A stretch of 47,196 nucleotides of DNA from Minisyncoccota bacterium (GTDB lineage Bacteria > Patescibacteriota > Minisyncoccia > Phycocordibacterales > SBAW01): NCBI GenBank assembly GCA_018060985.1, contig JAGOUZ010000006.1, positions 1-47,196 of the forward strand, in the 5' to 3' direction. Both the position numbers and the translations under genes were made by a program. Positions 3,261 to 41,699 of the stretch are shown here, piece by piece. The notes under the pieces are model-generated. The model was not told where the DNA came from. It saw only the letters and a list, made by a program, of their open reading frames with translations, and did not search any database. How positions within the stretch are numbered: position 1 is the first letter of the stretch; each line of letters starts with the position of its first letter.

Positions 3261-3965
3261 CTATTGACGGTCCTTCACCGAATTAATTACAGCCTTAAGC
3301 TGGGCATACGGGAGTGCGCCACTAATGGGAACCTGAGTGTCTCCTGCGACCACTACGGTAAACGGTGTGCCGTTGCCGCCATTTTGGCCTGCCTCAAGAG
3401 ATTGAGCGGCAATTTTTTCATCAAACTCACCACTCGCGATGCAAGCGGAGAACTGCTGCACATTCGCTCCGAGCTTGCCTGCAAGGCCCACATACTCTGC
3501 TGCATTCATTTTTGTCTGGTCAGCAAACATCGCGTCAGCAAACTGCCAGAATGCCGTGTTGCCTTTTTGTTTTGCGATACACTCCGACGCTATCGCGGCC
3601 GGCATAGCCTCTGGATGGATACTGCTAAGCGGCAGGTGACGATACACCCACGCAATTTCTCCATTCGACTCTTCTACAATCTTTTTTAGATCTGGATGAA
3701 TGCGCGAACAGAACGGACACTGAAAGTCAGAGTACTCAATCAGCATAATAGGCGCATCGAGAGACCCTATGAGGTGGTCATCGGAGGTAGCATCTGAGAC
3801 CTTAACCGAGACCGTAGGCTCCCCTGTCTCGACAACAGGCTGAACGGGATGCATGTTTACGAACACGATCGAACCGGCAACAAGTACGCCGGCCATAAGT
3901 ATCGAAAGTGACGGAGTAAGTTCAAACTTTTTCTTCTGAACAGGCGGTTGCGATGTGTCTTCCAT
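3261..3965 (-). CDS. DsbA-like thiol:disulfide oxidoreductase (membrane-anchored thioredoxin fold)
   Basis: A cytoplasmic basic stretch and one membrane helix (about residues 20-37) precede a thioredoxin-fold domain with the active-site motif FQCPFC in YSDFQCPFCSRIHPDL. The helical insert and the cis-Pro region NGTPFTVVV follow, as in the DsbA/Thioredoxin_4 group. It should introduce or shuffle disulfides outside the membrane. Likely clients are the cysteine-rich secreted proteins encoded at 14010-18183 and in the secretion locus (inference). The ATG at 3965 is preferred; an in-frame TTG three codons upstream is possible. Confidence 0.88.
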   Translation of the reverse strand: MEDTSQPPVQKKKFELTPSLSILMAGVLVAGSIVFVNMHPVQPVVETGEPTVSVKVSDATSDDHLIGSLDAPIMLIEYSDFQCPFCSRIHPDLKKIVEESNGEIAWVYRHLPLSSIHPEAMPAAIASECIAKQKGNTAFWQFADAMFADQTKMNAAEYVGLAGKLGANVQQFSACIASGEFDEKIAAQSLEAGQNGGNGTPFTVVVAGDTQVPISGALPYAQLKAVINSVKDRQ

Positions 3966-3981
3966 ATCTAACAACGCTAAC

Positions 3982-13092: not shown

Positions 13093-13449
13093 ATGCTTAA
13101 TCCATTTCCAGATCTTTTGTGGCTTGGTTTTTTTGCCCCGACGGTGCTGCGCCTCGCCGCTGCAGCCGTATTACTGATTGGCGCCTACGCGCACTATACA
13201 TCAAAGGGGTCTAACTCAACTGCGCTTGCCGCCGCACACGCGCTCCTAGGTGGCATGCTCTTTTTTGGCTGGTACACCCAGTACGCCGCATTGATTGGCA
13301 TAGTGGGTATTGTCGCGTGTTACGTACTCCCTAAGAAGCTACTTAACGTTGACCCTCTTCCGTGGGCTACATCCCTCCTTCTCTTTGCAATTTTTCTTTC
13401 ACTCCTCGTTTCCGGAGCAGGGGCGTTTGCATTTGATCTGCCTCTATAG
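13093..13449 (+). CDS. Four-helix membrane protein, DoxX-like
   Basis: A 118-residue, very hydrophobic protein with four predicted membrane helices. It contains LRLAAAAVLLIGAYAHY, ALLGGMLFFGWYTQYAALIGIVG and a PKK turn, the size and topology of DoxX/DoxD-like proteins; the assignment is weak. It has a full AGGAGG Shine-Dalgarno sequence 10 nt before the ATG, unusual in this window, consistent with an internal operon position. Confidence 0.6.
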   Translation: MLNPFPDLLWLGFFAPTVLRLAAAAVLLIGAYAHYTSKGSNSTALAAAHALLGGMLFFGWYTQYAALIGIVGIVACYVLPKKLLNVDPLPWATSLLLFAIFLSLLVSGAGAFAFDLPL

Positions 13450-13461: not shown

Positions 13462-13929
13462 GTGATACTTATACTCGACAACATACGGAGCGTGCATAAT
13501 GTGGGGAGCATATTCCGCACAGCAGATGCCGCGGGTATAGAAACGATATATCTTGTGGGCTATACCCCTACCCCACTCGACCGTTTTGGTACCCCACGCA
13601 AAGACTTTGCCAAAGTGTCACTCGGCGCAGAACACTCTGTACCATGGGAGCAGTTTGAATCTATTGAAGCCGCCACTACTGCCGCCCGTGAACAGGGATA
13701 CGTTGTGGGGGCACTAGAGCAGTATAAAGACTCAACAGATCTTTTCTCCTACACTCCGCCTAAGAAATTTGCCCTCGTGGTAGGTAACGAAGTCGACGGA
13801 GTCTCCTCCGCTACCCTCAAAGCCTGTGATGTTGTTTTGGAAATACCAATGCAAGGCACCAAGGAGTCGCTCAATGTCTCAGTAGCCGCAGGAGTCGCCA
13901 TGTTTACACTCCTCAACAGCAAGTCTTAG
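13462..13929 (+). CDS. SpoU/TrmH family RNA 2'-O-methyltransferase
   Basis: A 155-residue SPOUT (knotted) methyltransferase. Motif 1 is NIRSVHNVGSIFRTADAAG (Asn/Arg catalytic), motif 2 FALVVGNEVDGVSS, and motif 3 IPMQGTKESLNVSVAAGVAMF. It lacks an extra N-terminal RNA-binding domain, so it resembles TrmL-size enzymes; the tRNA or rRNA target is unknown. It starts with GTG, since the family N-terminus begins right there. Last gene of the ruvA run. Confidence 0.9.
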   Translation: MILILDNIRSVHNVGSIFRTADAAGIETIYLVGYTPTPLDRFGTPRKDFAKVSLGAEHSVPWEQFESIEAATTAAREQGYVVGALEQYKDSTDLFSYTPPKKFALVVGNEVDGVSSATLKACDVVLEIPMQGTKESLNVSVAAGVAMFTLLNSKS

Positions 13930-13972
13930 TGGGGACAATACTTCTTGTCTTAAAGAGAGGGCGCCTGCATTA

Positions 13973-14001
13973 TTGACGCATCGGGACTTTTATTATTTAA
14001 C
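13973..14001 (+). promoter_or_regulatory. Possible promoter of the first six-cysteine gene (TTGACG-17 bp-TTTAAC)
   Basis: The near-consensus -35 TTGACG is 17 bp from a weaker TTTAAC, which ends 8 nt before the ATG at 14010, the same geometry as other leaderless promoters here. The 80-bp gap after the SpoU gene has no clear terminator. Confidence 0.4.
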
Positions 14002-14009
14002 AACTCCCC

Positions 14010-15314
14010 ATGCAACGAAAGCGCCGCGTACGCACTCTCTCTTCCTCTCATCCTCAGTGGAAAATTATCACTCTCTCGGTGCTGACAGGTTTTGCATCTT
14101 TTACCACAGGCGGAGTACTGGCTTCTAGTGGAATAATTTCGGGCACATCTAACGCTGCCGCTGTTGCCCTAGCCACTGAACTTGGTCTGGAGAAAGACAA
14201 TAACTGCGACGAGAGAAAGCTCGTCAAATTTAAATCTCCTGGGAGCGGCACGACTAAGGAAGTCTATAGGCTCGATGGCCCGTGGCACGACAGCAATGGA
14301 TGCCTGCTTGATATCCTTAGCGCAGCTGAGGGGCAAAAGGCGGATAAAGCTATCTACGATTTTGCCTATTATCAGATGCTCTATCTACTATCACTACCCG
14401 AGGTACGTTTTGAGGGTGGAGATACAAAATTAAATAACGTACTAGACTCCAACGACGAACTTAGGCACGACAAAATAAAGCGTGTTACGTGGGTCGGGGC
14501 AAAAGGAGAACCATATGACGCCATGGGGCAGTCCGATCTTGGCGGATGGGCAATAAACATGTACAGACTGACTTCAAAAAAAGATGCGAACAAAAAGCAG
14601 GTAGAAGGATACAAAACTGTCGCATTTGGCGCAATGGATACGATACTTACCCCCGTAAGCGACGGAGGGCTACTCTCTCGTAACGACTGTAAGGAAAAGA
14701 AAAGTGAGAAGTGCTCATTCTTCCACTCAAAGACCAACGAAAATGTAGAACCCAGCAAGGCGTGGACTATGAACAAGCACATGTATGCGGCCAACAACCT
14801 CTGGGTGTTTGGAAAAGATCTTGAAAACTCGGGTGAGTCTACTCTTAAGTCCAAAGCGGACAAATACAAAAAGGCTGCGGTTGAAGGCATGCACCAACTT
14901 GTGTACGGCGAGAGTATCAAGACCGGCAAGACACCTACTCTTTTTGACTACGTACCTCGGAACAACGGCAAGGCTATACAGAATAGCTGGATTTACTACA
15001 GCATAGACACCGATACTCGTAATGGTTATTACCTTGATGCCAAGGGTAAAAACTGCAATTACCACCAACTTGTCGTAAGTCTCCTCGTAAGGAACTTCAA
15101 GGCTATGGGCAATGAGGTAAAGATGGAAGGCTTTACGGAGAAGCGCAGCAACTTGGGCAATAAGTCTATTCTTGAGTACTTAGTACGCTCGTATGAGATC
15201 AAAAAGGAAGACGGCCTCTACAAGAACACCAAAACGGAAGATGGGGGTAATTTTACTGAATGTCTGGACGATAATATCACCAAGGACGACATAAAATATC
15301 TCCGTAGTCTTTAA
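14010..15314 (+). CDS. Secreted six-cysteine family protein, paralog 1 of 3, unknown function
   Basis: 434 residues. A basic n-region, hydrophobic segment (about 18-42) and a small-residue region ending near SNAAAVA form a signal peptide. The mature part shares a full-length pattern with the next two genes: YRLDGPWHDSNGC, YYQMLYLLSLPEVRF, GEPYDAMGQSDLGGWAINMYR, KCSFFHSKT, TMNKHM, AAVEGMHQLVYG, PTLFDYVPR, KNCNYH, KSILEYLVRSYEIK and terminal YLRSL. It has exactly six cysteines (66, 98, 227, 235, 349, 418), all shared. Mostly helical. No named family is recognised; a glucuronyl-epimerase-like helical barrel is a guess. Confidence 0.85.
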   Translation: MQRKRRVRTLSSSHPQWKIITLSVLTGFASFTTGGVLASSGIISGTSNAAAVALATELGLEKDNNCDERKLVKFKSPGSGTTKEVYRLDGPWHDSNGCLLDILSAAEGQKADKAIYDFAYYQMLYLLSLPEVRFEGGDTKLNNVLDSNDELRHDKIKRVTWVGAKGEPYDAMGQSDLGGWAINMYRLTSKKDANKKQVEGYKTVAFGAMDTILTPVSDGGLLSRNDCKEKKSEKCSFFHSKTNENVEPSKAWTMNKHMYAANNLWVFGKDLENSGESTLKSKADKYKKAAVEGMHQLVYGESIKTGKTPTLFDYVPRNNGKAIQNSWIYYSIDTDTRNGYYLDAKGKNCNYHQLVVSLLVRNFKAMGNEVKMEGFTEKRSNLGNKSILEYLVRSYEIKKEDGLYKNTKTEDGGNFTECLDDNITKDDIKYLRSL

Positions 15315-15343
15315 TCTATTACTTACATTTAATTAAACTATAT

Positions 15344-16675
15344 ATGGGTCAAAAACGCTCAGCTCGCCGCAAGCACGCTCTCTCTCACTCGCATTGGAAA
15401 CTAGGCTCGCTTTCTAGCTTAACGGCAATTGTTTCAGTTGTAGTAGGCGGCGCCCTTTTTACCACTCTTGCAACAGGCACCGCATCTGCTGCCCCACTTG
15501 CAACTGATCTCGGACTTGCTGCGGATAACGCGTGCGGTACAGAAACTGCAACCTTTAGAGTTATTGACGGCGCACCACAGCATACCGTGTTTAAACTCAA
15601 CGACGTGTGGCACAAAGCTAATCCGTGTCTTGAAGATCTGACCGAGGCTCTGCGTAAGCAGCCTGCAACTGCACTCATCCACAACTTTGTGTACTACCAG
15701 CTGCTCTACCTCCTTTCAAGACAGCCGGTTCAATTTTCTGACGCGGGGGCTACAAAAGATTGGACGATAAAAAATCTCATAACCGTTCAGGAAAAGCTAG
15801 ATCTCGCCAAACTCAAGCGACTCATTTATACCAGCGCTGAGGGCGAACCCTACGACGGCATGGGTCAGTCTGACATGGCAGTCTGGGCAATTGATACCTA
15901 TCGCGCCATGCTGAGCAAAACTGGCGCCAACCCTGATTACACTGCTGCATATAAAGCAGTAGGTCTCGCTTCAATGGAAACCATTACGGCACTTACTAAC
16001 AACAAGGGTTTGCGTTCACAGCGCAACTGCGCAACTAAGGCGGGCGCAAAGTGCTCATGGTTCCACTCAAGAACAAACGACGAGGGCAGCGCTGTAGAGG
16101 GCCGCACCCTTAACAAACACCTACAGATCGTACGAGACCTCTGGGACTTTCAGAAAGTCCTACGTGCCATCGGTTCGGCTGACTTAACTCCCTTCGCAGA
16201 CAAATACACCGCTGCGGCAGTAGAAGGAGCCAACCAGCTTGCCTACGGCCCAAGCATAAAGGTAGGCAATGTTGCACCGAACCTATTCGACTTTGTGGCA
16301 CGCAAGCCAAGCGGAGAGCAAATTCAACGTAGCTGGTTCATATATGGCTTTACCCCCACTGGGAAAGGGTACTTCCTTGAACAAGTGCCGGAGAAAAACT
16401 GCGGCTACCACCGACGCAATATTAGCCTCATGGTAGATATCTTTAGGCGCTTCGGAGGCTTAATAGACAAAGCGGGTTTCAATACCCCACCCGCAGACAA
16501 TAGCCTAGGTACTAAGTCAGTACTCGAATATCTGGTGCGCGCATACGAGATAAAGACAGAAGAAGGCCTTAACACGAACTCTACCAGCTCTACTGGAGGC
16601 AACTTTGGCAAGTGTTCGGACGACATAGGGGCAGCAATTACCGTAGACGATCTCACCTATTTGCGCAGTATCTAA
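15344..16675 (+). CDS. Secreted six-cysteine family protein, paralog 2 of 3, unknown function
   Basis: 443 residues. A classic signal peptide: RKxxR-type basic start, hydrophobic core (about 24-46) and TASA cleavage site before APLATDLGL. The conserved blocks are KLNDVWHKANPC, FVYYQLLYLLSRQPVQF, GEPYDGMGQSDMAVWAIDTYR, KCSWFHSRT, TLNKHLQIVRDLWDF, AAVEGANQLAYG, NLFDFVAR, KNCGYHRRNISLM, KSVLEYLVRAYEIK and YLRSI. The six cysteines are at 64, 95, 229, 237, 353 and 424. It follows paralog 1 by 29 bp and is probably cotranscribed. A terminator follows. Confidence 0.85.
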   Translation: MGQKRSARRKHALSHSHWKLGSLSSLTAIVSVVVGGALFTTLATGTASAAPLATDLGLAADNACGTETATFRVIDGAPQHTVFKLNDVWHKANPCLEDLTEALRKQPATALIHNFVYYQLLYLLSRQPVQFSDAGATKDWTIKNLITVQEKLDLAKLKRLIYTSAEGEPYDGMGQSDMAVWAIDTYRAMLSKTGANPDYTAAYKAVGLASMETITALTNNKGLRSQRNCATKAGAKCSWFHSRTNDEGSAVEGRTLNKHLQIVRDLWDFQKVLRAIGSADLTPFADKYTAAAVEGANQLAYGPSIKVGNVAPNLFDFVARKPSGEQIQRSWFIYGFTPTGKGYFLEQVPEKNCGYHRRNISLMVDIFRRFGGLIDKAGFNTPPADNSLGTKSVLEYLVRAYEIKTEEGLNTNSTSSTGGNFGKCSDDIGAAITVDDLTYLRSI

Positions 16676-16762
16676 GTCTCCCCAAATAGGGCTATAAATA
16701 AGGACACTTTTTGATATTGCTGTAAAGTACTTGCCAAATACTTGATTGTATGTTAGTATATT

Positions 16763-16788
16763 AAAACACCCACTTTAGGGTGTTTTTA
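16763..16788 (+). terminator. Intrinsic terminator between paralogs 2 and 3
   Basis: A 9-bp stem AAAACACCC/GGGTGTTTT is followed by T residues. It separates paralog 3 from the first two, so paralog 3 probably has its own promoter within the 24 bp after it; none is convincing. The rest of the 137-bp gap is AT-rich and unassigned. Confidence 0.75.
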
Positions 16789-16812
16789 ATTTACTAGTTT
16801 CTCGCAATTATC

Positions 16813-18183
16813 ATGCAGAATGCATACGCACGTCAGGTCTTAGTAATTGGTTCCCTATCTATGAAGATAGGTGCTCTTTTTGTGCTTGCGCTTGCTACTT
16901 TTGTTGTAGCAAATGCTCTTCCTACCACCGTAAAGGCAGCTGGGTTTATTGAAGATACCTACAACTTGCCCACGGAGGGAAACGCGTGTATCGAGTTCGA
17001 CACCGTTGGGTTTAACGCTACAAATGGTGCCCCTGAACATCGCGTCTACAAACTCAACGACGTATGGCATCAGATCAACCCATGTCTCAAGTTCCTCAGA
17101 GGCGAGGCTTCTAAGCGTGCCTCGACTGACCCACTGTACGACTTCGTGTACTACCAGACCCTCTACGTGCTTTCTCAGCCTGAAGTAGAGTTCTACAAAG
17201 GCTCAAGCAAGAAAGGCGCATCTCTTAAGAAGATTGTAAGCAAAGAAGATAAGCTCGACCTAACTAAGTTTGACCGACTTACCTATACTGGGGAAAAAGG
17301 CCAGGCGTATGACGGCATGGGTTCAGCAGACTTTGGCAATTGGACACTTGATATGCATCGCGTCTACTTAGCCAAGTCTAAGGAGTTAGCAAAGACTGGT
17401 CAGACCCTCGACACGGCAAGCCAGGAACAGTCTGCTTCATACATCTCAGTTTCTCTCGCCACGATGGAGACAATTATTACGTCAACAGACAAGGGCGGTT
17501 TGCGCAACACAGCGACCTGCGGAGATAAAATCAATGGCAAGGAGGCAAAGTGCTCATGGTTCCATTCAAAGACCAGCGATGATAAAGACCCTGAGGACGG
17601 TCTTACTATTAACAAGACGTTGAGCGTTGTTCGTGACTTGTGGCGCTATGGCCGAGACCTCCGTTTAACTCAATCTACGGACCTTGTGGCTCGTGCAGGA
17701 AAGTTTGAAGACTATGCGGTAGAAGGAGTAAATCAGATGGTATACGGCAAGGGCATGAAGAAGGCAAAAACTCCTACCCTCTTTGACTTCGTGCCGCGCG
17801 ACAAGAAAGGCAAAGTTATTCAGGACAGCTGGATGTACTACGGTCTTGGTATAAACAAGAAAGAGAAAGACGGCTTTAAAGGATATTATCTGAAGACAAC
17901 TATTGAAAAGAATTGCGGATACCATAGACGCAATATCAGTCTCTTGGCTACGATCTTCCAGGAGATGAGCGGAAAAATAAATATTAAAGGCTTCACCGAC
18001 GAGCGTAAAGACCTAAACAATAAGTCTATTCTTGACTTCATGATTAAGGCCTACGAAATTAAAGAGGATGGCCAGTTGCATAAAAACGAAGACACTACCC
18101 CTCCAGGTAACTTCCAGCGCTGCTCTGATGAAACAGGCGCAGATGTGACCCCAGAGATGTTCGCCTACCTCCGCAGCCTATAA
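16813..18183 (+). CDS. Secreted six-cysteine family protein, paralog 3 of 3, unknown function
   Basis: 456 residues from this ATG; a second ATG 16 codons later gives a more standard signal peptide (MKIGALFVLALATFVVANA, cleavage near VKAAG). The blocks are KLNDVWHQINPC, FVYYQTLYVLSQPEVEF, YDGMGSADFGNWTLDMHR, KCSWFHSKT, TINKTLSVVRDLW, YAVEGVNQMVYG, PTLFDFVPR, KNCGYHRRNISLL, KSILDFMIKAYEIK and YLRSL. The six cysteines are at 59, 91, 236, 247, 368 and 437. It differs by GSAD in place of GQSD and NKT in place of NKH. A strong terminator follows. Confidence 0.85.
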   Translation: MQNAYARQVLVIGSLSMKIGALFVLALATFVVANALPTTVKAAGFIEDTYNLPTEGNACIEFDTVGFNATNGAPEHRVYKLNDVWHQINPCLKFLRGEASKRASTDPLYDFVYYQTLYVLSQPEVEFYKGSSKKGASLKKIVSKEDKLDLTKFDRLTYTGEKGQAYDGMGSADFGNWTLDMHRVYLAKSKELAKTGQTLDTASQEQSASYISVSLATMETIITSTDKGGLRNTATCGDKINGKEAKCSWFHSKTSDDKDPEDGLTINKTLSVVRDLWRYGRDLRLTQSTDLVARAGKFEDYAVEGVNQMVYGKGMKKAKTPTLFDFVPRDKKGKVIQDSWMYYGLGINKKEKDGFKGYYLKTTIEKNCGYHRRNISLLATIFQEMSGKINIKGFTDERKDLNNKSILDFMIKAYEIKEDGQLHKNEDTTPPGNFQRCSDETGADVTPEMFAYLRSL

Positions 18184-18204
18184 TCCCCGCCTACATCATT
18201 GTAA

Positions 18205-18232
18205 ACAAAACCTCCCATGTGGGAGGTTTTGT
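18205..18232. terminator. Strong intrinsic terminator after paralog 3
   Basis: A perfect 12-bp stem ACAAAACCTCCC/GGGAGGTTTTGT with loop ATGT. The A/T-rich outer part allows action on both strands, including tRNA-Lys transcripts from the right. Confidence 0.8.
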
Positions 18233-18242
18233 CACTTATAAG

Positions 18243-18315
18243 TCCGCCCACTTGGATTCGAACCAAGGACCTTCTCCTTAAAAGGGAGCCGCTCTACCGA
18301 CTGAGCTATGGGCGG
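18243..18315 (-). tRNA. tRNA-Lys (UUU)
   Basis: A 73-nt cloverleaf with acceptor stem CCGCCCA/TGGGCGG. The anticodon arm CTCC-CTTTTAA-GGAG gives anticodon TTT. A73; CCA is not encoded (CT follows). Confidence 0.92.
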
Positions 18316-18326
18316 AGAATGAGGCC

Positions 18327-18397
18327 AAAGCGAAAACTTGTTTTTGCTTTAGCGCCGAACGAACCGCCCATATCAAGCGAAGCGAGGATATGGGCGG
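18327..18397. repeat. Two hairpins between the holA-like gene and tRNA-Lys
   Basis: Hairpin 1 (18327-18350) has 10-bp arms AAAGCGAAAA/TTTTTGCTTT around CTTG. Hairpin 2 (18364-18397) has perfect 11-bp arms CCGCCCATATC/GATATGGGCGG around AAGCGAAGCGAG. The hairpin 2 arms repeat the first eight bases of tRNA-Lys (CCGCCCAT). Its loop shares AGCGAAGCGA with the loop of the tRNA-His element. No T-tail marks either as an ordinary terminator. Confidence 0.6.
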
Positions 18398-18433
18398 ATG
18401 TGTGCTTAAAATACAATAAAACCCCTTATTCCG

Positions 18434-18967
18434 CTAGAGTTTTAGTGCGAACCGCTCAAGAAGTAATTCTAGGTCCCCCGCGCCGCGATGGGAGTCGTGA
18501 TACATAAACGTAAGCTCGCGACTAAGCTTTATGTCTTTTAATGCGCGCGCCTTCCATGCAAGCAAGCCTGCAACGGCTTCGGCTTTTTCCCCAGCACGAA
18601 ATGCCTGCATAAGCCCGAGCCACAGACGCTTCTTGTCGTGCGCGGCAAGCGCAAATGTCAGTCCAAACTGATCAAACTTCCATTCTTCTTTCTTTACCTT
18701 AACTTCTTTTATCTTTATTCCTGCTGCGGTAAGCGCGTCGGTATGCTTTTTAAGAAGCTTGTCTTCCTCAAACACAAACGTATGCGGAGAGTCTTTAAAT
18801 GCTTTTGCTTCTTCGAGCACCTCTTCCCCACTGTCGCCCGTTAATATGCCGGCATACATAAATGTCTGCACACCAAAGAGCGCTGGAGTGGTCGCTTGTG
18901 CCAGCAACTCTTCTACAGATATTTCTGTAGTATTTGCCGAGACGTTACCGACAACAACGTGCATCAT
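18434..18967 (-). CDS. DNA polymerase III delta subunit-like (HolA) short form
   Basis: 177 residues. Features recalling HolA are PALFGVQTFMYAG near the start, HTFVFEEDKLLKKHTDALTAAG (compare E-KLDKR) and GLTFALAAHDKKRLWLGLMQAF. The end, AGLLAWKARALKDI plus HDSHRGAGDLELLLERFAL, matches the C-terminal collar domain. It is about half the usual 340 residues and lacks a recognisable AAA+ N-terminal domain. The start overlaps the polA stop as ATGA, implying translational coupling. Clamp loading is inferred, not certain. Confidence 0.6.
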   Translation of the reverse strand: MMHVVVGNVSANTTEISVEELLAQATTPALFGVQTFMYAGILTGDSGEEVLEEAKAFKDSPHTFVFEEDKLLKKHTDALTAAGIKIKEVKVKKEEWKFDQFGLTFALAAHDKKRLWLGLMQAFRAGEKAEAVAGLLAWKARALKDIKLSRELTFMYHDSHRGAGDLELLLERFALKL

Positions 18968-21384
18968 ATCTTTAGTTTTTCCATCTCGCCCCAGTTCCTC
19001 CCCACCTTGCCTTCAGCAAGGATCGGGATATCGCGACGATCCTTTGCAGGCACAATATTTTCCATAATTTCTTTTATCTTTGGCGCCAACTCTTCTACCT
19101 TTGTATCTTCAATTTCAAATACCAATTCGTCGTGCACTTGCAAAAGCAGATGGGCACTATTTTCAAGACCCTCTTTTTTAAGCATGGTGTCTATCTGCAC
19201 CATGGCGAGCTTCACAATATCGGCCTGCGTTCCCTGCATCGGTGCATTAATGGCCATGCGCTCCGCTGACGCGCGCACAAACGGTATTGGTGAGTGGATA
19301 CCATCAAAGTACCTGCGGCGGCCAAAGTAGGTCGTTGTGTAGCCCTGTACTCCTGCCTGACCCTTAACCTCGTCTATATATGCAGCGAGTCGCGGGAAGG
19401 CCTCAAAGTACTGGTTGTAGAACTCCTGTGCCTCTGCGCGGCTGGTGCCAAGACTTTCTCGAAGTGCGTTCACTCCCATGCCATACAGAATGCCGAAGTT
19501 AATTACTTTAGCGACACGGCGCTGATCGTACGTGACCTGGTCTGGCTGCACATGGAACACTCTCGAAGCAACCTCGGAGTGCGCATCCCTCCCCAGCTTA
19601 AATATTTCCATCAGACCCGGGTCTCCAGAAAGCCACGCGGCAATACGGAGCTCTATCTGACTATAGTCAAAGGCAACCAACATAGAGCCTTTTTCTGCAA
19701 CAAAGGCATTGCGTATGACACGTCCAAGCTCTGTCTTAATCGGGATATTTTGAAGGCCTGGATTTTGTGTGGCCAAGCGCCCGGTTGCAGCGCCCATTTG
19801 TATAAACGTAGTGTGCACGCGATCTTCACTATCAACCAGCGTGGGTAGATTGTCGATATACGTCGAGAGAAGTTTTTGCAATTCGCGATACGAGAGGATG
19901 TCCTCAATAATCGGATGCAGGCTCTTCATCTTAATAAGTTCTGCTTCGCGGGTTGAGCGCGCACCGGTAGGAGTCTTTTTTTGTCGTTCGGGTTTTATGC
20001 CGAGCTTGTCGAACAGCACCTCGCCCAACTGCTTCGGCGAGTTTACGTTAAACGGGCCTCCTGCGTGTTCGTAAATACGTGCCGCCAAGATTTCAAGTTC
20101 TTTTGTGTAGTCTTTAGACAGCTTCTTCAAAAAGTCGCGATCTATTTTTACTCCCCTCTTCTCCATTGCGCGTAGTACCGGCATGAGGGGCAGCTCGATC
20201 TCTTCGTATACATACTCAAGCTCTTTTTCTTTTATCTCTGCAAGAATATTTTTTGACGCCTCTGCAAACGCTCTGGTTTTCCCAAGGCGATATACATCTT
20301 CTATGTCGGGCTTAGCAATGTTTGAGTCGAGCACAGACACCGCAAGAAGGATCTTCTGTAGCTCATCTTCCGGAATGTTCTCAGCATAAGTCTCATTGCC
20401 GGAGAAAAAGTCTGGCTGGCCAGGGTCGATAGACCCTAGGGATTTTTCTGAGGCAGCAATGTTGGAGCCTCCCAATACCTGCTTAACGCGCGGCATAAGA
20501 GAACGAAATTCAAACTCGGCGAGCATATCAAACGTTTTCTCAGGTTCCGCGCCCTCCTTCCACGTTTTTTCTGGGAGCACAAAATCTATCGGCGCATCGC
20601 GATGTATGGTGCCAAGCATCTTACTAAACTCCGCCGCCTCCCTTCCCTCTTTAATTTTTTCTAGTGTCTTCCCCTTAATCCCTGCCTTTTCAAACCACTC
20701 TGGATGCTTGTCGAGCGCTTTATAAATATCTTCTACTCCACCAAACTGCGAAATAAGTACCGTGGCGGTTTTATCTCCAATACCCGGAATGCCTGGGATG
20801 TTATCAGACGGGTCGCCGCGAAATCCTTTGTAATCTGGCAGTAGCTCCGGTCCAAAGCCGTAGCGCTCTTTTACCATATCCTCGTCATAAATAACGGTAT
20901 CGGTCAGACCTTTTTTGAGCGTATATACTCGAACCTTATCGCCATCAACGAGCTGCAGCGTGTCCATGTCGCCTGATGCGATTACCACCTCGACATCATG
21001 TTTGTTTTTTAGCTTCTGCACTATAGTGCCAATAACATCGTCAGCTTCAAAGCCTGCCTTTTCATACAACGGAATACCAAACGCACTTAATACATCACGG
21101 GCGCGGTCTATCTGCGACACCAGCGCATCTTCTGTTTTAGTGCGCTTGGCCTTGTAGCCATCAAAGGCATCATGACGAAACGTAGCGCTCGGCAAATCGT
21201 ACGCTGCCACAATATAGTCGGGACCCAGATCCGTAATTATCTTAACGAGCATGGAGATAAGCCCGTAGAGCGCGCCTGTTGGCTCACCCTTGCTTGAAGA
21301 GAATTCGGGTAGCGCATGGTACGCACGGTGCAATATCGCATGTGTGTCGAGCAGTACTAATCTTTTTTTATCGGTTTTACTCAT
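18964..21384 (-). CDS. polA: DNA polymerase I
   Basis: 806 residues. The N-terminal 5' nuclease domain (about 1-290) has LLDTHAILHRAYHALP, GFEADDVIGTI, VIASGDMDTLQLV and DPSDNIPGIPGIGDKTA. The polymerase domain (about 395-806) has PFNVNSPKQLGEVLF, MGAATGRLATQNPGLQNIP, FDYSQIELRIAAWLSGD, RRVAKVINFGILYGMG and VHDELVFE. Only about 90 residues separate the two, so a 3'-5' proofreading domain is essentially missing. It lies between tsaE and the holA-like gene with 4-bp overlaps on both sides. Confidence 0.96.
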   Translation of the reverse strand: MSKTDKKRLVLLDTHAILHRAYHALPEFSSSKGEPTGALYGLISMLVKIITDLGPDYIVAAYDLPSATFRHDAFDGYKAKRTKTEDALVSQIDRARDVLSAFGIPLYEKAGFEADDVIGTIVQKLKNKHDVEVVIASGDMDTLQLVDGDKVRVYTLKKGLTDTVIYDEDMVKERYGFGPELLPDYKGFRGDPSDNIPGIPGIGDKTATVLISQFGGVEDIYKALDKHPEWFEKAGIKGKTLEKIKEGREAAEFSKMLGTIHRDAPIDFVLPEKTWKEGAEPEKTFDMLAEFEFRSLMPRVKQVLGGSNIAASEKSLGSIDPGQPDFFSGNETYAENIPEDELQKILLAVSVLDSNIAKPDIEDVYRLGKTRAFAEASKNILAEIKEKELEYVYEEIELPLMPVLRAMEKRGVKIDRDFLKKLSKDYTKELEILAARIYEHAGGPFNVNSPKQLGEVLFDKLGIKPERQKKTPTGARSTREAELIKMKSLHPIIEDILSYRELQKLLSTYIDNLPTLVDSEDRVHTTFIQMGAATGRLATQNPGLQNIPIKTELGRVIRNAFVAEKGSMLVAFDYSQIELRIAAWLSGDPGLMEIFKLGRDAHSEVASRVFHVQPDQVTYDQRRVAKVINFGILYGMGVNALRESLGTSRAEAQEFYNQYFEAFPRLAAYIDEVKGQAGVQGYTTTYFGRRRYFDGIHSPIPFVRASAERMAINAPMQGTQADIVKLAMVQIDTMLKKEGLENSAHLLLQVHDELVFEIEDTKVEELAPKIKEIMENIVPAKDRRDIPILAEGKVGRNWGEMEKLKI

Positions 21385-33567: not shown

Positions 33568-34035
33568 ATGGATGCAAACACGCTCAAGCAACTCGTTTCC
33601 TCCATACTCTCAACGCTTGACGTGGCTATTGATTCTATAGAAGTAGCGGGCACCCACCGCACCATTGTTGCTATATCATCCCCTGACTCTAAGCGGCTTA
33701 TAGGGCCCCATGGCGAACATTTACGGGCGCTTAATATGTTGACGAGACGTTTGGTTGAAGCGAAGCATGGCGAAGAAGCGGCAAACTTTCTCGTTGATGT
33801 TAACGGGTATCACGAAGAAAAAATGGAAACCGTGCGGCAAAATGCCCGAATACTTGCCCAGCGCGCACGGTTGTTTAAACACGATGTAGAAATGAGTCCT
33901 ATGAGTCCGTACGAGCGACTGGTGGTTCATGAACTTTTTTCTGAAGATCCTGAAATTACTACCGCCTCAGAAGGCGAAGGCAAATTCCGTCATATAGTGC
34001 TCAAATATCGCGCTGGGCAAGCACAGGGCCACTAG
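33568..34035 (+). CDS. Jag/KhpB-like KH and R3H domain RNA-binding protein
   Basis: 155 residues. The KH domain has SSPDSKRLIGPHGEHLRALNMLTRRL (GxxG as GPHG) and DVNGYHEEK. The R3H domain has the Arg-x3-His core in SPYERLVVHELFSEDP. The N-terminal Jag_N domain of longer homologs is absent. KhpB proteins regulate cell elongation and peptidoglycan synthesis in Gram-positives. It is next to yidC as usual. Confidence 0.9.
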   Translation: MDANTLKQLVSSILSTLDVAIDSIEVAGTHRTIVAISSPDSKRLIGPHGEHLRALNMLTRRLVEAKHGEEAANFLVDVNGYHEEKMETVRQNARILAQRARLFKHDVEMSPMSPYERLVVHELFSEDPEITTASEGEGKFRHIVLKYRAGQAQGH

Positions 34036-35258
34036 TTGGTGCGTACTCCCCAGAGCGAATAGTCCCCTCTCCGTACAAAAAGCAGGTAATTGTTATCCTC
34101 TGAAATACTCATAGAGTGTATTGCTGAATCCACACCCCCTTCTTCGCTCCCTGGCACCGCAAGAATGGTTTCTTGGTCAGTGGCTACATCAAACAGTAAG
34201 ATAGCATCTGACGTAGGATTTATGCCTTGGTGCCACGTATTGAGATACGCGGCGTCTGTGTAATCTAGGGGTGTTGCACAGTAGAGGTAGGTGGTGGTTG
34301 CAGTTCCCCAGATACATTTTTCAGGGTATGGGTCGAAAGAGAGTTCAAGACTCTTTCCTGTAGCGACTTCACGCGAGTAGGTTGTGCCGTTTGTTTGGTA
34401 TACCACTCTTGCAAAAGATGGGTTAGCCGTGAGGGTAAGGCCTGATGCATAGAGAAGCGGTAGCACTGCACCGCTTGTGGCATTTATTGAGAACGCAATA
34501 CCTGGCACACCGAACGCGCTCTTGCTCTGAGCAAGGAGGGTGCCTTGCGATGGCCAAGAAATAAGTACCTCCTTGAGCGGAATGGTGAACACCTGTTTAC
34601 TCTCAGTGCCGTCTGCTTTAGCGATAAAGCCGTTTACGCCAGTTGCAGTTTTAAGGAGGTAAACCACTGAAGCCCCGCTGGGAGAGACGGCAAGATCTTG
34701 TATCCCATCTGGCAAAAATTTAATAGTAACGGGGCGAGTGGTCGTGCTCTGCCCTACTGGGAAGCCGAGATGAACCGTCTTGGTGACGCCAGCGTCGAGA
34801 TACTGCAGTAGGGCTGCGTTTCCTCCTGCGGCCCACAGTACACGTACAATGCCTGGGATAGTGGTGTTTGATATCGATCGGGGCACAGCACCTGAGGAGT
34901 CGAGCGTAATATCAAAGACGTGGCCATTATTCTGTTGAACATAGCGAGCCACCGTAGTAGTAGGACGCAGGGTTTGGATAATGGTTGCGCCGGCTACCGG
35001 CCCATTCCCAATTTTATAAATCTTACTGTCAACAGAAATAGAAACAGCTTCCCCTTCGCCCGGCTCAGTTGCGGCGATAGCGTCGCCAGTATTTTCTGGG
35101 GAATCTACATTAACAGTTTGAGTAAAGTCACTTTGAAGTTCAGGCTCTGTAGTTACGGGCACGACTTCTACTCCAGGTGCGCGAAAAAATAAAAACCACA
35201 CGAGTCCCACTGCAGCAACTACTCCGATCGGTATGCCTATAATTAGTACTCTGTTCAT
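34032..35258 (-). CDS. Membrane-anchored beta-propeller-like protein, unknown
   Basis: 408 residues. An N-terminal membrane helix (about 4-28), an acidic Thr-rich linker (30-75), then repeated beta-strand blocks such as ILISWPSQGTLLAQSK, VVYLLKTATGVNGFIAKADG and HSMSISEDNNYLLFVRRGDYSLWGV, typical of WD40-like or TolB-like propeller blades. There is no catalytic motif. It is the last gene of the secretion locus, 9 bp after the pilin-like gene, so a surface or scaffold role is inferred. Confidence 0.65.
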   Translation of the reverse strand: MNRVLIIGIPIGVVAAVGLVWFLFFRAPGVEVVPVTTEPELQSDFTQTVNVDSPENTGDAIAATEPGEGEAVSISVDSKIYKIGNGPVAGATIIQTLRPTTTVARYVQQNNGHVFDITLDSSGAVPRSISNTTIPGIVRVLWAAGGNAALLQYLDAGVTKTVHLGFPVGQSTTTRPVTIKFLPDGIQDLAVSPSGASVVYLLKTATGVNGFIAKADGTESKQVFTIPLKEVLISWPSQGTLLAQSKSAFGVPGIAFSINATSGAVLPLLYASGLTLTANPSFARVVYQTNGTTYSREVATGKSLELSFDPYPEKCIWGTATTTYLYCATPLDYTDAAYLNTWHQGINPTSDAILLFDVATDQETILAVPGSEEGGVDSAIHSMSISEDNNYLLFVRRGDYSLWGVRTN

Positions 35259-35267
35259 AAACTATAT

Positions 35268-36458
35268 TTAACCCAACTTACAAATATGGATAGTCATTCC
35301 TTCTGAGGCCCCGACTTCCTTAGGAGGAGTTTTCTTTTTCACATCCCATCCTCTCAAACTATTCCATACGCCGCTTGTGCAATTTTCTCTAAACTTTTTT
35401 ATTTCCTCCAGTACTGTCTTATTATTTTTCTTTGTAGAGTCGAACATGAGGATGTGCTCGTCTATTAAACAGGTGTTGCCACCGCCAGCGGAGGGGCGAC
35501 AGTCATAATACTCATTTAGTTTTTTTAACTGCTTCGAGTTAAGTGTTGCTTCTTTTACGCCGTCTCCTCCTAGTGTTTTAGTTTTGTCGTCCTCTATAAA
35601 GACATAGCCTGGCGCCGGCGATAATAGGCCCTTGTCGAAGGAAAGAAGATCCGGGTTAATAGTGTTAAGTATAATCCACGAGGCTCCTAGGATAAGAAGG
35701 CCGACAAATGCAGCTTTGACCCTCTCTCTACCCACGAGTTTGGTAACGGCAGATTCCGACACCATGTAGGTGATGCCTCCGATTACCAGTACGACAACCG
35801 CAAGAAATGCCCCTACGTTTATAAGGATACGAAAGAATCCAGCGAGAAGGGTGCCAAACGGTGCCTCGCCACTTTGGTCTACCCCAACCAAGGGCTCAAG
35901 TGGCACATAACTCAGATTTATATTTACCGATTTACCACTGGTCTCGTTGTCAGCACCTCCAACTTCGGGGTTTGTGGGTGTGGTGTTTGAGATTTTAAGA
36001 ATGGCGGAGTTAAACGTAACGGTATTGCCGCTCGAGTCCTTACATTTAAGAGTATAGTTTGCAGTTTTGGTTGGCTTCACTTTAACTGAGCCACTCAATG
36101 GTTCAGGGGTTCCATTTATAGAGCAACTCGTTGTATTGCTCGTTGTCCAGCTGAGGGTGGCAGAGCCACCTGGGTCAATTTTTTCTGGGCTTACTTTAAC
36201 GCTTCCTGAAGGCGGATTAAAGGCGTAGCCCGTTGGCATTGTCGGACAAGAATATCTAGAGGAACCGAGACTTTTACATCCATTGGGGAGATTGGCCACC
36301 GTTTCTTCTGGTGATGTGAAGGCACATATATAGGCTTTTTCGAAATCGTCATACTTACAATCTATAGCCGAGGCTTTATGAGGAATCGCAAACAGTATGG
36401 TTGCGGATATGACAAAACAGGCACTCAGTACAGAAAAATATTTAAGGTATGTACTCAT
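35268..36458 (-). CDS. VirB2-like pilin with N-terminal Ig-like domain
   Basis: 396 residues. A signal peptide (HKASA|ID) is followed by a Cys-rich segment and an Ig-like domain (PPSGSVKVSPEKIDPGGSAT, LSWTTSNTTSCSI). Two hydrophobic helices then follow, ILINVGAFLAVVVLVIGGITY and VKAAFVGLLILGASWIILN, joined by a short basic loop (KLVGRERVK), the T4SS pilin (VirB2/TrbC-type) pattern. A long cysteine-containing C-terminal domain follows. Its start overlaps the previous stop as ATGA. Confidence 0.75.
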   Translation of the reverse strand: MSTYLKYFSVLSACFVISATILFAIPHKASAIDCKYDDFEKAYICAFTSPEETVANLPNGCKSLGSSRYSCPTMPTGYAFNPPSGSVKVSPEKIDPGGSATLSWTTSNTTSCSINGTPEPLSGSVKVKPTKTANYTLKCKDSSGNTVTFNSAILKISNTTPTNPEVGGADNETSGKSVNINLSYVPLEPLVGVDQSGEAPFGTLLAGFFRILINVGAFLAVVVLVIGGITYMVSESAVTKLVGRERVKAAFVGLLILGASWIILNTINPDLLSFDKGLLSPAPGYVFIEDDKTKTLGGDGVKEATLNSKQLKKLNEYYDCRPSAGGGNTCLIDEHILMFDSTKKNNKTVLEEIKKFRENCTSGVWNSLRGWDVKKKTPPKEVGASEGMTIHICKLG

Positions 36459-37492
36459 AAGCCAAAGAATGATGAAATGCCGTCGCTTGATTGTGCGCCA
36501 AAGATCATGCGCACCGCTGTTTCAGCTGACTGTAGCAATTTTGTGCCGTTCAAGTTCTGCAATTCTACACTAAGCCGTGTCTGCCCTGCCCCCTCGCCTG
36601 TTTGGCGCAAAGTCATAAGGCCGTCATCGGCATTGGGGCCAGTAGTAGTGCGGCCATCAAGCTTCCATTCAAATGTAAGGTCGCTACTCGAAAGGCTGTC
36701 GTTAGAAAAAAAGTAGGGCACCGCCTGCACCGTGATCTCTTTTGTGGTGAGCGATATGGCCGAAGGGAGTGCTTCATTCCAGAGGACACCACGTAGCGGA
36801 TCGCGCTGATACAGAACTATCTGCGGCTTCGTGACTGGTATGGTTATAGACCCCTGCCCTACTAATGCCGTACCCAAGTACACATCCACGCTCACAGATT
36901 CGTTGCCTTTAAGCTGATTTCCAGCAAAAGCAAACAAACTGCGACCCTTCCCCGACTGCGACGGTACAGGTTCCCCACCACGCTTCCACTGATAGCTTAG
37001 GCTGCTCGCAGAAATAGTACGGCCACCGGTCACTACTTGCGGAAAGGCTGTTACCCGCAGATTTGAACCTGGGGCATACAGAGCTTTGCCGCGATAAAGC
37101 GGTGGTACAGAAGTATCGGCTTCCCACATGAGATTGATCGTTGAAGGAATGAAGGTGAATGATCGCGTAAAAATACCCACAGATGGAGAGTCGATGGTCA
37201 TTTCTATACGGGTGAGCTTTCCTAGTTGGCCAGCCACAAAAGAATACACTCGCTCACCAAGGCCGTTTTTAACTATTTTGCCATCCTGAATCCAGGTAAT
37301 TTTGGCATCACCTAAAAAGGTCCCAATACCTTGCACCTCTAGGTTGACTGTTTGCCCCGGTGCTGGCATTTGAGGCGTGACACTTACCCGGATAGGCTCA
37401 GTGTCCTCCCCGAGGATCTGTGCAGAGACGGGGGTCGCTACAAGCAACCCAAGCAATACAGCACCTACTATGTAGTTAAGCGACTTGTACAT
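36455..37492 (-). CDS. Secreted Ig-like repeat protein of the secretion locus
   Basis: About 345 residues. Signal peptide MYKSLNYIVGAVLLGLLVA with cleavage near VSAQ. The mature region has at least three Ig-like beta-sandwich repeats, each with a W/K core: KITWIQDGKIVKNG, LSYQWKRGGEPVPSQSGKG and LTFEWKLDGRTTTG. No enzyme motif is seen. It probably decorates or stabilises the pilus or envelope part of the system. The start at 37492 is chosen for the signal peptide; it overlaps the upstream gene by 17 bp. Confidence 0.7.
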   Translation of the reverse strand: MYKSLNYIVGAVLLGLLVATPVSAQILGEDTEPIRVSVTPQMPAPGQTVNLEVQGIGTFLGDAKITWIQDGKIVKNGLGERVYSFVAGQLGKLTRIEMTIDSPSVGIFTRSFTFIPSTINLMWEADTSVPPLYRGKALYAPGSNLRVTAFPQVVTGGRTISASSLSYQWKRGGEPVPSQSGKGRSLFAFAGNQLKGNESVSVDVYLGTALVGQGSITIPVTKPQIVLYQRDPLRGVLWNEALPSAISLTTKEITVQAVPYFFSNDSLSSSDLTFEWKLDGRTTTGPNADDGLMTLRQTGEGAGQTRLSVELQNLNGTKLLQSAETAVRMIFGAQSSDGISSFFGL

Positions 37493-38138
37493 TGGATTTA
37501 TTAGAAGGACGAATGTCTCGCATCGGGGCTCTTTCGGGATACTGTTTTTCACTAGCTCGAATAAGTTCTCTGGCACTTGTTGGCTGCGGAATGTTATTAG
37601 GATTTGCGCTGCCAGTAGTATTTTCTTTGATGTTCATAATGCCGCGCACCGGTGCGAGGGCAAGACCGGCAATTCCCAGCACGCCCTTACGAGCTTTTGT
37701 GCCGGAACTTTGTGCCCAGATGCAGGAGATAGTAAACATGGTCCAGAATGGAACATTATTAATACCCGGTATCAATTCCGCACCCGACCACCATAGGCGC
37801 TTATATGGTTTGAGACCAAAAAAGAGGAGCAGGAAAAACAAGAATCCATACCCAAGCACAAAACTAAGAACCATATTAATAGCGATGCCAATCGTTGCCC
37901 CTATGGGAATCGTTACCGGTGCAATAAATGGATTTGCAAATGTTCCCAAGACTCCAAGTACACCGCCTCCTATCCAGCATCCAATTTCGCCCGCAACAGC
38001 ATTACCACCGGCACACCCCGCCACACCACCAAGGGCATTGCCAGGGAATGCAGCGACAGCCCAAATGCCCCAGGAAATCGTTACCTGAAGGAAGTCGACA
38101 AAAAGTGCTACTAGGATGAGTGCGCCATTCTTAACCAT
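37476..38138 (-). CDS. Polytopic membrane protein of the secretion locus, unknown
   Basis: About 220 residues. It begins MVKNGALILVALFVDFLQV and has four or so membrane segments, including Gly-rich GNALGGVAGCAGGNAVAGEIG and FLFFLLLFFGLKPYKRLWWSG. A polar C-terminal tail is cytoplasmic or extracellular. It is not recognised. The ATG lies 4 bp after the virB4 stop, and TACAAT inside the virB4 end is 6 nt before the ATG, suggesting an internal leaderless promoter. Confidence 0.65.
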   Translation of the reverse strand: MVKNGALILVALFVDFLQVTISWGIWAVAAFPGNALGGVAGCAGGNAVAGEIGCWIGGGVLGVLGTFANPFIAPVTIPIGATIGIAINMVLSFVLGYGFLFFLLLFFGLKPYKRLWWSGAELIPGINNVPFWTMFTISCIWAQSSGTKARKGVLGIAGLALAPVRGIMNIKENTTGSANPNNIPQPTSARELIRASEKQYPERAPMRDIRPSNKSNVQVA

Positions 38139-38142
38139 TCTT

Positions 38143-39948
38143 TTATTGTACCGCCTGCTTTTGCTTGCGGAGCGCAAGCACCTGGGACGGATCAGAAGTA
38201 ATAATCTGGTCTTCGGTGTAGGAAGCGATAATTTTTATGGCGACGTGCTTCATGCCGGCAAAAAAGATCCCCTCCCCTACATCGCTCTCAAGAAGCAGGA
38301 ATTTCTCTTCGTCTGATAGGTTGAATGTCTTTTGCAGGCTGTCTATGGTCGTCGGCGATTGTTTAAGCAGCAACTGAAGTGATGAGTTAGTAATCATCGG
38401 GAGCCCATAGGGAGACTTTAAGAAGTCGTCTACGTCTTGAGTAATAGTTGCAAGACCAAGATAGTACTTGCGCCCGCGCTTTGCCATACCGTACAGGAAG
38501 CTTGCCGTGTCGTCGGTCTTCATCATCCACCATGCCTCATCGATAACCAACAGGCGTTTTTTAAGGGTTTTGCGCACCGCGTTCCAGATAAAGTGCGTAA
38601 TAAGGTACATAGCAACCGGCTTAAGGTCGTCTTCCATGTCACGAACAGAAAATACGACAAACTTTTTGTTGAGGTCTACGTTCGTAGGTTGGTTAATAAA
38701 TCCTGACCACGTACCCTTGGTGTACTTGGAGAGGCGCGCTACGAGGGACTCGCTGCCCGACATACCTGCGAGCACAAGTTCAAAGTCAGAAAGCAGAGGT
38801 GGTTCGATCTGAGAGAAGTCGGCGTCAGGGGTAATGTCTTTAAGGGCGTAGGTCTCCGTGATTGCTTTGTCTATAGTTGCATCTTCTTCCGGGGTAAGTC
38901 CGCCAAGCATAATCCTAAACATGCCGACAAGCGCCACAATGTTTGAGCGCAGCACATCAGCACCCGACTCGTCTTCACGCGGGGGTGCCAAGTCAAAGGG
39001 GTTAATGTGGTGCTCGGAGTTAAGAGAAATATTGAAATAGCGCCCCCCTACTGCCTGGGAGAGGTACTCGTATTCGCGTTCAGGGTCGATAACAATAACC
39101 TCTGTGTCGAACATAAGCGTACGAAGTATCTCGAGCTTGGTGGCATAACTTTTACCGGAGCCGGATTTTGCAAATATAACGGAGTTGTAGTTCTCGAGCG
39201 AAAAGCGGTCAAACAACACCAAACTGGCGTTGTGACGATTAACTCCGTAAAGAATTCCCTTGTCAGAAGTAAGGTCAAAAGACACGAACGGAAAAATAGA
39301 TGAGAGTGGTGATGAGTTGAGTTTTGAATTGACGCCGAGTTCGTCGCCCCCAAGCGGCATCACTGATCTAAAGCCCTGTTCCTGTTGGAAGAGTGCCGGT
39401 TTCACATATACGAGGCGGCTCTCGAGCATGGATTTAATCTCGGACTCAGTTTTATCAAGTTCATCAAGAGTTTTACCGTAGATGCTGATGTAAACGCCCA
39501 CGTCAAAAATCTTCTCCTGTGCCTGCTGGAGGTTGTCGCGCAGGTCCTCAAGGTCGTGATAGGCAGTGTCGAGAACCGGGTCGCGCACCAACCCCTTTTG
39601 TTCGCGGGTCATAATCTGCGACTGTACTTCCGCCACCTTTTTCTGGAACTTCTTAAGGATTTCTGCCGAGTCTATGGGGTGGATAAAGATAGAAATGTCG
39701 AGCACTCGGTCGAGGTTGATAATGGGCGCAAACCAGCTGTCGGTAAGAACGCGTGGATACGACATCACAAAAAAGGTGCGCGCTATCTTGTCGCCCAAGT
39801 TAATTTCTCGCGGTGTAATTTTAAGTGCCGAAGGCGCGATGACGTCTTGGAGCTCCAATACGCCCTGCTTATAAATCTGTTCCGGCAGTATGGATGCAAC
39901 CGGGACATCAACCTGTTTCTTTTTCCCAAAGAGATCAAAAAGTGCCAT
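38143..39948 (-). CDS. VirB4-family conjugation/secretion ATPase
   Basis: 601 residues. The N-terminal region contains ARTFFVMSYPRVLTDSWFAP and VDVGVYI-type segments. The ATPase core has Walker A FAKSGSGKSYATKLEILRTL near residue 262, VIVIDPEREYEYLSQAVGG, HHINPFDLAPP and Walker B LLVIDEAWWMM near residue 470, then RKYYLGLATITQDVDDFL. It energises T4SS assembly or substrate transfer at the membrane. A separate short gene just upstream encodes a TraC/VirB4 N-domain-like protein. Confidence 0.93.
   Translation of the reverse strand: MALFDLFGKKKQVDVPVASILPEQIYKQGVLELQDVIAPSALKITPREINLGDKIARTFFVMSYPRVLTDSWFAPIINLDRVLDISIFIHPIDSAEILKKFQKKVAEVQSQIMTREQKGLVRDPVLDTAYHDLEDLRDNLQQAQEKIFDVGVYISIYGKTLDELDKTESEIKSMLESRLVYVKPALFQQEQGFRSVMPLGGDELGVNSKLNSSPLSSIFPFVSFDLTSDKGILYGVNRHNASLVLFDRFSLENYNSVIFAKSGSGKSYATKLEILRTLMFDTEVIVIDPEREYEYLSQAVGGRYFNISLNSEHHINPFDLAPPREDESGADVLRSNIVALVGMFRIMLGGLTPEEDATIDKAITETYALKDITPDADFSQIEPPLLSDFELVLAGMSGSESLVARLSKYTKGTWSGFINQPTNVDLNKKFVVFSVRDMEDDLKPVAMYLITHFIWNAVRKTLKKRLLVIDEAWWMMKTDDTASFLYGMAKRGRKYYLGLATITQDVDDFLKSPYGLPMITNSSLQLLLKQSPTTIDSLQKTFNLSDEEKFLLLESDVGEGIFFAGMKHVAIKIIASYTEDQIITSDPSQVLALRKQKQAVQ
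38145..38150 (-). promoter_or_regulatory. Possible internal -10 box (TACAAT) at the end of virB4
   Basis: TACAAT on the minus strand ends 6 nt before the ATG of the membrane protein gene. It matches the leaderless pattern, but lies in coding sequence. Confidence 0.35.
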
Positions 39949-39952
39949 ATGG

Positions 39953-40618
39953 TTACTGTTGTTTGGCTAACTGTAAGGGCTTTTCAAGCTCGCCGGGATT
40001 AAAGAGCTTGTAGAAGAGCTCAATAATTTCTTCGGTTCCGAGTTTTACTACGCGCACACCGGTGCGGGTCAGCCCTTGCTCAACGACTGCTACACGCTGC
40101 TCGAGCTGAGTCCGATACTGCTCGAACTGCGCGTCGCTCAGGGCAACTGCCTCCCCTTTGCTGGTTGGGAGGAGTGCGCTGATGGCGCCGACACCCCCAC
40201 CTCCGCGTGCAATGAGTGCCGGATCGTAGGGTATAACAATAAAAAAGTTCTTGGTCATAATGTTTGCACGCTCGGTAAAATCTTTGATGAACGCGATATA
40301 TTCGCGTATCTGGATCTTCATAAGATCGTCGAGCTCAACCGCATTACGCTCTTCGAGGAGTGCCAAGTACGGTCGTATGTCGAGTTCGCGCGACTCGATA
40401 AAGAACTGGAGAGGAAACTCAAGCGAGTTCAAGAAGTTTTGAAACTGACCGATAATTGCTTGCTGCTCATCGCTGCTTTTGAGTGCCAAGTTAATAGATG
40501 AAGCCATTAGAAGCATGCGCAGTGAGCCGTCTTTAAGTATGACGATACCATCACGCACTTCTTTGAGCGGAACAAACTCCTGAGTACCTTTAGCTTTGAC
40601 CTTAGTATGGGTGGGCAT
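39953..40618 (-). CDS. TraC/VirB4 N-terminal-domain-like protein
   Basis: 221 residues, no ATPase motifs. EFVPLKEVRDGIVILKDGSL, then QAIIGQFQNFLNSLEFPLQF and YIAFIKDFTERANIMTKNFF resemble the N-terminal domain of TraC/VirB4 proteins that contacts VirB3. It is soluble, between prgI and virB4, with a 4-bp gap to virB4. It may be a VirB4 N-domain encoded separately, or a distinct adaptor. Confidence 0.75.
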   Translation of the reverse strand: MPTHTKVKAKGTQEFVPLKEVRDGIVILKDGSLRMLLMASSINLALKSSDEQQAIIGQFQNFLNSLEFPLQFFIESRELDIRPYLALLEERNAVELDDLMKIQIREYIAFIKDFTERANIMTKNFFIVIPYDPALIARGGGGVGAISALLPTSKGEAVALSDAQFEQYRTQLEQRVAVVEQGLTRTGVRVVKLGTEEIIELFYKLFNPGELEKPLQLAKQQ

Positions 40619-40623
40619 AGTGT

Positions 40624-41070
40624 CTAAATTTCGAAATCATCTCTCGGGGGGCGTATGCCCATCTGGGCTCGGTCTTTGATGTTGAGGGACCACGAGAGAT
40701 CTTTAAGTTTGCTTTGCGAAAGCGTAGGGGCAACGAGGCCGCTCGCTAATGGCTTGGTTACCTCTGGTGCTGCGGGAGAATTCTTTTGTTCGCGTTGTTT
40801 CCACAAGTACAATTTGTTGCCAAAATAATAGCCAAACGCATGTTCCATTGAGTTGATAAACGGCCTACCGTTTACCTGGTAAAAAGCCAAGGCGGCCGCA
40901 AGGACCAATACCGGGATCATGAGTGGGATCGCCAGCCAAATGGGCAGAAGCGTAAAGAGCATAAGACACAACCCTCCCCCTCCTGCGAGATAGAGAAACT
41001 GTTTGAGTGTGAGTGGGCCGAAGATCTTATCCTCGATCTCAATAAATTGAGGAACTTGGTACTGAGCCAT
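40624..41070 (-). CDS. PrgI family protein (VirB3-like)
   Basis: About 148 residues. It starts MAQYQVPQFIEIEDKIFGPL, then LTLKQFLYLAGGGGLCLMLF and a second helix, then PFINSMEHAFGYYF, the PrgI pattern. PrgI/VirB3 proteins are small two-helix membrane partners of VirB4. The C-terminal 50 residues are polar. The start is set by the family N-terminus; TATAAT lies 9 nt upstream. Confidence 0.88.
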   Translation of the reverse strand: MAQYQVPQFIEIEDKIFGPLTLKQFLYLAGGGGLCLMLFTLLPIWLAIPLMIPVLVLAAALAFYQVNGRPFINSMEHAFGYYFGNKLYLWKQREQKNSPAAPEVTKPLASGLVAPTLSQSKLKDLSWSLNIKDRAQMGIRPPRDDFEI

Positions 41071-41079
41071 TACCCTCAA

Positions 41080-41085
41080 ATTATA
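41080..41085 (-). promoter_or_regulatory. -10 box (TATAAT) upstream of prgI
   Basis: A perfect TATAAT on the minus strand, 9 nt before the ATG. GAGGG within the gap could also act as a weak Shine-Dalgarno sequence. Confidence 0.45.
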
Positions 41086-41102
41086 TCGCACTTTTTACTC
41101 AA

Positions 41103-41693: not shown

Positions 41694-41699
41694 ATAGCA

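Follow-up and report, generated by a model that had tools for sequence, protein, structure and literature searches.

What do three adjacent genes encode when their products resemble one another, carry export-type N-termini and match no described family, and how did they come to lie where they do? We addressed this question for genes A, B and C of the window, i.e., the whole stretch of 47,196 nucleotides analysed here. Such genomes often encode exported orphan proteins, and the interest of these three is raised by their tandem triplication and strict cysteine pattern. The interactions of ultra-small bacteria with their surroundings are mostly unknown, and exported orphans are leading suspects. 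As compact and probably soluble proteins, A, B and C provide mutual controls, and they lie at a site whose cargo can be traced across the genus.

The genome comprises 0.72 Mb at 98% completeness, and its small size, together with T4SS-like and envelope genes, fits the reading that it belongs to a patescibacterium. The T4SS-like cluster (34032-46415, minus strand) includes a VirB4/TraG-type ATPase (38143-39948; PF19044, 2e-26), a weak match to a T4SS pilin (35268-36458), and two long proteins, of 917 and 653 aa, for which Pfam gave no match.

Genes A, B and C are full-length paralogs

Genes A (14010..15314), B (15344..16675) and C (16813..18183), all on the plus strand, encode proteins of 434, 443 and 456 aa, exactly as the initial annotation had listed these tandem open reading frames. 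We describe each product as an exported six-cysteine protein from its open reading frame, alignment and cysteine map, supplemented by the N-terminal hydrophobic segment and the lack of a later transmembrane segment, and for B also by an AlphaFold model. The full-length similarity claimed for the three proteins was recovered with MAFFT, at 39-45% pairwise identity. Codon differences between pairs reached 0.64-0.67 at position 3, compared to 0.36-0.45 at positions 1 and 2, and each of the five alternative frames contained 12-35 stops. This third-position excess and the stops in the other frames indicate that A, B and C are real genes constrained at the protein level, and the codon pattern is what long divergence under protein constraint should leave between paralogs.

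The conserved blocks quoted in the initial annotation were present in substance, but not with the uniformity that it implied. Protein A reads GPWHDSNGC instead of DVWH followed by NxC, and has KCSFFHSKT where B has KCSWFHSRT; B ends in YLRSI, and C carries AVEGVNQMVYG. The two replacements by which C had been singled out, GSAD for GQSD and NKT for NKH, are both seen in the alignment. C has truly diverged in sequence, and a change of function may or may not go with it.

The intergenic regions were examined for transcription signals. Genes A and B are separated by 29 bp and are probably cotranscribed. The 137 bp between B and C contain promoter-like hexamers (TTGCCA-17-TAGTAT) and then a terminator-like hairpin (16731..16787, plus strand; hairpin z -3.0), the count of promoter-like sites in this region being not above chance. 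A strong stem-loop just 3' of C (18205..18232, plus strand; -19.7 kcal/mol, z -5.0) probably terminates transcription of the cluster, which has no carbohydrate genes next to it.

Cysteines, export signals and disulfide machinery

Each protein has six cysteines and no others, at residues 66, 98, 227, 235, 349 and 418 in A, 64, 95, 229, 237, 353 and 424 in B, and 59, 91, 236, 247, 368 and 437 in C. As proposed in the initial annotation, they stand at matching places, 6/6 falling in common alignment columns. Under a crude model, the chance that six columns coincide among approximately 390 is about 2e-13 for any one pair; since A, B and C are homologous, this coincidence reflects retention and not convergence.

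The signal peptides assigned to all three proteins agree with their N-termini, which, read by eye, comprise basic stretches, a hydrophobic core and AxA-like sites, with a cleavage-like site between ASA and AP near residue 49 of B. In gene C, an internal ATG at 16861 (codon 17) gives a more typical, textbook signal peptide and, going by this canonical form, may be the true start of the gene. No transmembrane-like segment follows the N-terminal one in A, B or C (none past residue 60), and a sortase anchor was not found, with neither LPXTG nor a C-terminal transmembrane segment in any of them. A lipobox cysteine was likewise not found at the cleavage site, the first cysteine lying approximately 14-17 residues past the predicted position.

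A VKOR and a pair of DsbA-like proteins pass the Pfam cut-off in this genome, one of the latter being encoded within the window. This exported thiol oxidoreductase (3261..3974, minus strand), outside the cluster, is a candidate catalyst for disulfides in A, B and C. Given these oxidation proteins, disulfide formation is plausible, and the three sequences combine what is expected of disulfide-bonded exported proteins, namely invariant cysteines and an encoded oxidation pathway. Paired thiol oxidoreductase and VKOR families have been reported in CPR bacteria (PMC6744442).

The cluster occupies a variable site beside tRNA-Lys

The three genes lie in a variable interval with a SpoU-type RNA methylase gene (13462..13929, plus strand) as conserved left border and tRNA-Lys(TTT) (18242..18315, minus strand) as conserved right border. 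The conserved right flank is a holA-like gene (18434..18967, minus strand; name assigned from position and size, with no Pfam match) beside polA (18964-21384). This gene order is recognisable throughout the genus, and the SpoU-holA interval measures 4511 bp here versus 193-1815 bp in congeners for which both ends were found. In the nearest relative, the interval holds a CspA-like short gene and a gene for a 190-aa membrane protein (named by eye); in three congeners (L039, L041, L042), an unrelated exported family of 228-241 aa; and in other congeners, genes for undecaprenyl-diphosphate-synthase-like or Fic-like proteins (names by eye), or almost nothing. Decayed remnants of A, B or C were not found in the congeners' interval with all HMMER filters off. 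Because the contents differ between species, the three genes are accessory cargo and not core envelope genes. The initial annotation had taken their retention as a sign of an important envelope role; a niche or accessory role fits the variable cargo site better.

Two further features of the site were noted. The tRNA-Lys gene occurs in either orientation across the genus at the SpoU-holA site (13462-18967; L037-L052). A small membrane protein (13093-13449) adjoins SpoU in the genus and diverges faster than its neighbours, with only approximately 32-44% identity between species.

As for the age of the cluster, PolA and RuvB are 80% and 90% identical to those of the nearest relative, and A, B and C differ mutually by about 60%. 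This comparison suggests that, unless evolution was very fast, the duplications predate the species split, and that the cluster was either lost by relatives or arrived already diverged. It may have arrived horizontally. A recent foreign origin was not supported by composition: GC3 of the three genes is native-like (0.51-0.53), which speaks against a recent donor of different composition.

Family searches and distribution

The absence of a recognisable family, claimed from the sequence alone, held across Pfam, NCBIfam, PHROG and PDB sequences. In the first three libraries, no match to A, B or C passed the cut-off where one exists, and the best E-value (0.067) concerned unrelated families. Matches to Phage_lysozyme, PGAP1, HPr and phrog_12549 (E 0.07-0.26) each involved a single member, at different places and without support from the other copies, and were rejected. 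PDB sequences gave no match up to E 1, and a match to an Rv3378c-type diterpene synthase at E 2.1 was taken as chance. None of the CAZyme Pfam families matched even at E 10, toroid glycosidase and epimerase families gave no sequence-profile match (Pfam to E 10, PDB sequences), and no toxin domain was matched in Pfam. A, B and C form a real family unmatched in any library searched, whose fold is most likely of a known type.

We then made approximately 1,300 scans of Patescibacteria-type genomes in total, in overlapping samples, with a profile built from the three sequences. This three-row profile finds the three copies in their own genome, the only one in which the family was seen. Among 98 relatives, of which 34 belong to its genus, the profile detected nothing convincing, and the remaining 40 genomes of the taxonomic family, 34 of them congeneric, were devoid of a copy. 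Nor did samples of the order (396 others), class (383) and phylum (379) yield more than weak fragments that look like chance. The short fragments in L006, L055, L056 and L057 (E 0.006-0.05 per genome) were taken as chance; that of L055 runs antisense to an RNase Y-like open reading frame, and L056 was judged by score alone. No relative was found by tblastn of phage and plasmid records, nor by pattern scans of GTDB (two) and IMG/VR (three) contigs, which need short near-exact stretches, reach only fairly close relatives and would miss distant ones. The distribution is narrower than the domain common to Patescibacteria envisaged in the initial annotation, of which the family, order, class and phylum samples yielded no convincing homolog.

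Structure models point to paired helices

AlphaFold models of B (m6d72d53fae49; pLDDT 67, pTM 0.74) and A (pLDDT 63, pTM 0.70), both of modest confidence, were built on one three-sequence alignment and are not independent. Both predict largely paired long helices with two short N-terminal strands, at approximately 8-9 long helices versus 12 in a full (alpha/alpha)6 barrel, and confidence is low around residues 253-302 of mature B. Foldseek against the PDB returned no match at E 0.001, the best being 0.063 for B and 0.12 for A, with a TM-score to the query of at most 0.34. A confident match to a described family, which would have contradicted the novelty proposed for these proteins, was thus obtained neither from sequence nor from the models.

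The best matches, all at E >0.06, were mostly toroids: the first 14 PDB matches of B and, in the case of A, approximately 41 among the best 50, a striking enrichment that may be partly generic to helical proteins. This count was made from the listed names via known family folds; the (alpha/alpha) toroids are mainly GH37, GH92, GH116, GH52, GH125, GH8, GH105, AGE/YihS and designed toroids, and most of them are carbohydrate-active enzymes. Not all of the listed proteins are enzymes, designed toroids and complement C4 being among them, and a viral structure library gave no match. In the models, the conserved polar motifs YDxMGxxD, NK[HT] and KNCxYH would sit near helix starts; D122, D128, E245, H192 and H307 (mature B numbering), invariant in the three sequences, are candidate catalytic residues.

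Possible roles of A, B and C

The explanation that we favour, while giving it somewhat less than an even chance, is that the three proteins leave the cell by the Sec route as mostly helical toroids, are stabilised by disulfides and act on glycans outside the cell. They would constitute a lineage-restricted family of soluble proteins from which the signal peptide is removed, after which the DsbA-like and VKOR proteins would oxidise the six cysteines into up to three disulfides stapling the helical domain. The fold would most likely be an (alpha/alpha)-toroid of the kind seen in many carbohydrate-active enzymes, with YDxMGxxD, NK[HT] and KNCxYH lining a cleft that may bind, and probably cleave or modify, a glycan on neighbour cells or in the environment. 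A, B and C may have diverged toward different substrates, and the cluster would have reached, or survived in, the genome as cargo at the variable site by tRNA-Lys. In its most specific form, a new family of exported enzymes with a toroid stapled by three disulfides, acting with three specificities on partner-cell surface glycans and carried as tRNA-flanked cargo, this explanation is unlikely. If A, B and C do act on glycans, they would open a direct way to learn what cells of this kind contact or consume.

Nearly as likely is that the three are non-catalytic surface or matrix proteins, i.e., exported, disulfide-stapled helical binders that serve adhesion or the recognition of self or host, each copy having diverged toward a different partner. 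Such a role would suit proteins that are exported and soluble, have no identifiable catalytic residues and occur as divergent tandem copies; the weak toroid matches include designed toroids and complement C4, and a patescibacterial epibiont sends many large adhesion-domain proteins to its cell surface (PMC13059738). However, the predicted position of YDxMGxxD and KNCxYH near helix starts resembles an active-site cleft more than a rapidly varying face, and an anchor such as LPXTG or a C-terminal transmembrane segment is lacking.

It is rather improbable that A, B and C belong to a known exported family diverged past recognition, their orphan status being due to fast evolution and a shallow profile. 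The profile indeed has only three rows, and the protein at 13093 is 42% identical to that of the nearest relative, versus 80% for PolA. Nevertheless, the three sequences can still be aligned with one another without difficulty, and relatives carry non-homologous genes at the site and not diverged copies, even with HMMER filters all off. A slightly lower probability still is given to antagonistic exported effectors directed against neighbouring bacteria and acquired as a horizontally mobile cassette. The variable insertion site, patchy distribution and divergent tandem copies would agree with effectors, as would a T4SS-like cluster elsewhere in the window, but nothing ties the three genes to that cluster, and they have no immunity-like partner, Pfam toxin domain or targeting domain.

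Comparison with known systems

With regard to the glycan-acting toroid that we favour, the closest enzymes are the (alpha/alpha)6-toroid CAZymes (GH125, GH8, GH116, GH52, GH37, GH105, AGE/YihS), paired-helix toroids that dominate the weak Foldseek lists of the A and B models. In contrast to these, A, B and C have no sequence or significant structure match, fewer predicted helices and no identified conserved catalytic pair, and their six-cysteine pattern is specific to them. Gram-positive exported proteins served by MdbA/VKOR, pilins and others, share conserved cysteines, export and the presence of DsbA-like and VKOR genes; A, B and C differ from them in that neither a sortase motif nor a match to a pilin family was found and in carrying their six cysteines in a large helical domain. 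Compared to the CPR-enriched exported families of unknown function (PMC6744442), which are widespread across CPR, A, B and C were found in a single genome, but they resemble them in being exported from a CPR-like genome, in having no recognisable homology to proteins of other bacteria, in the disulfide machinery and in a plausible cell-cell role.
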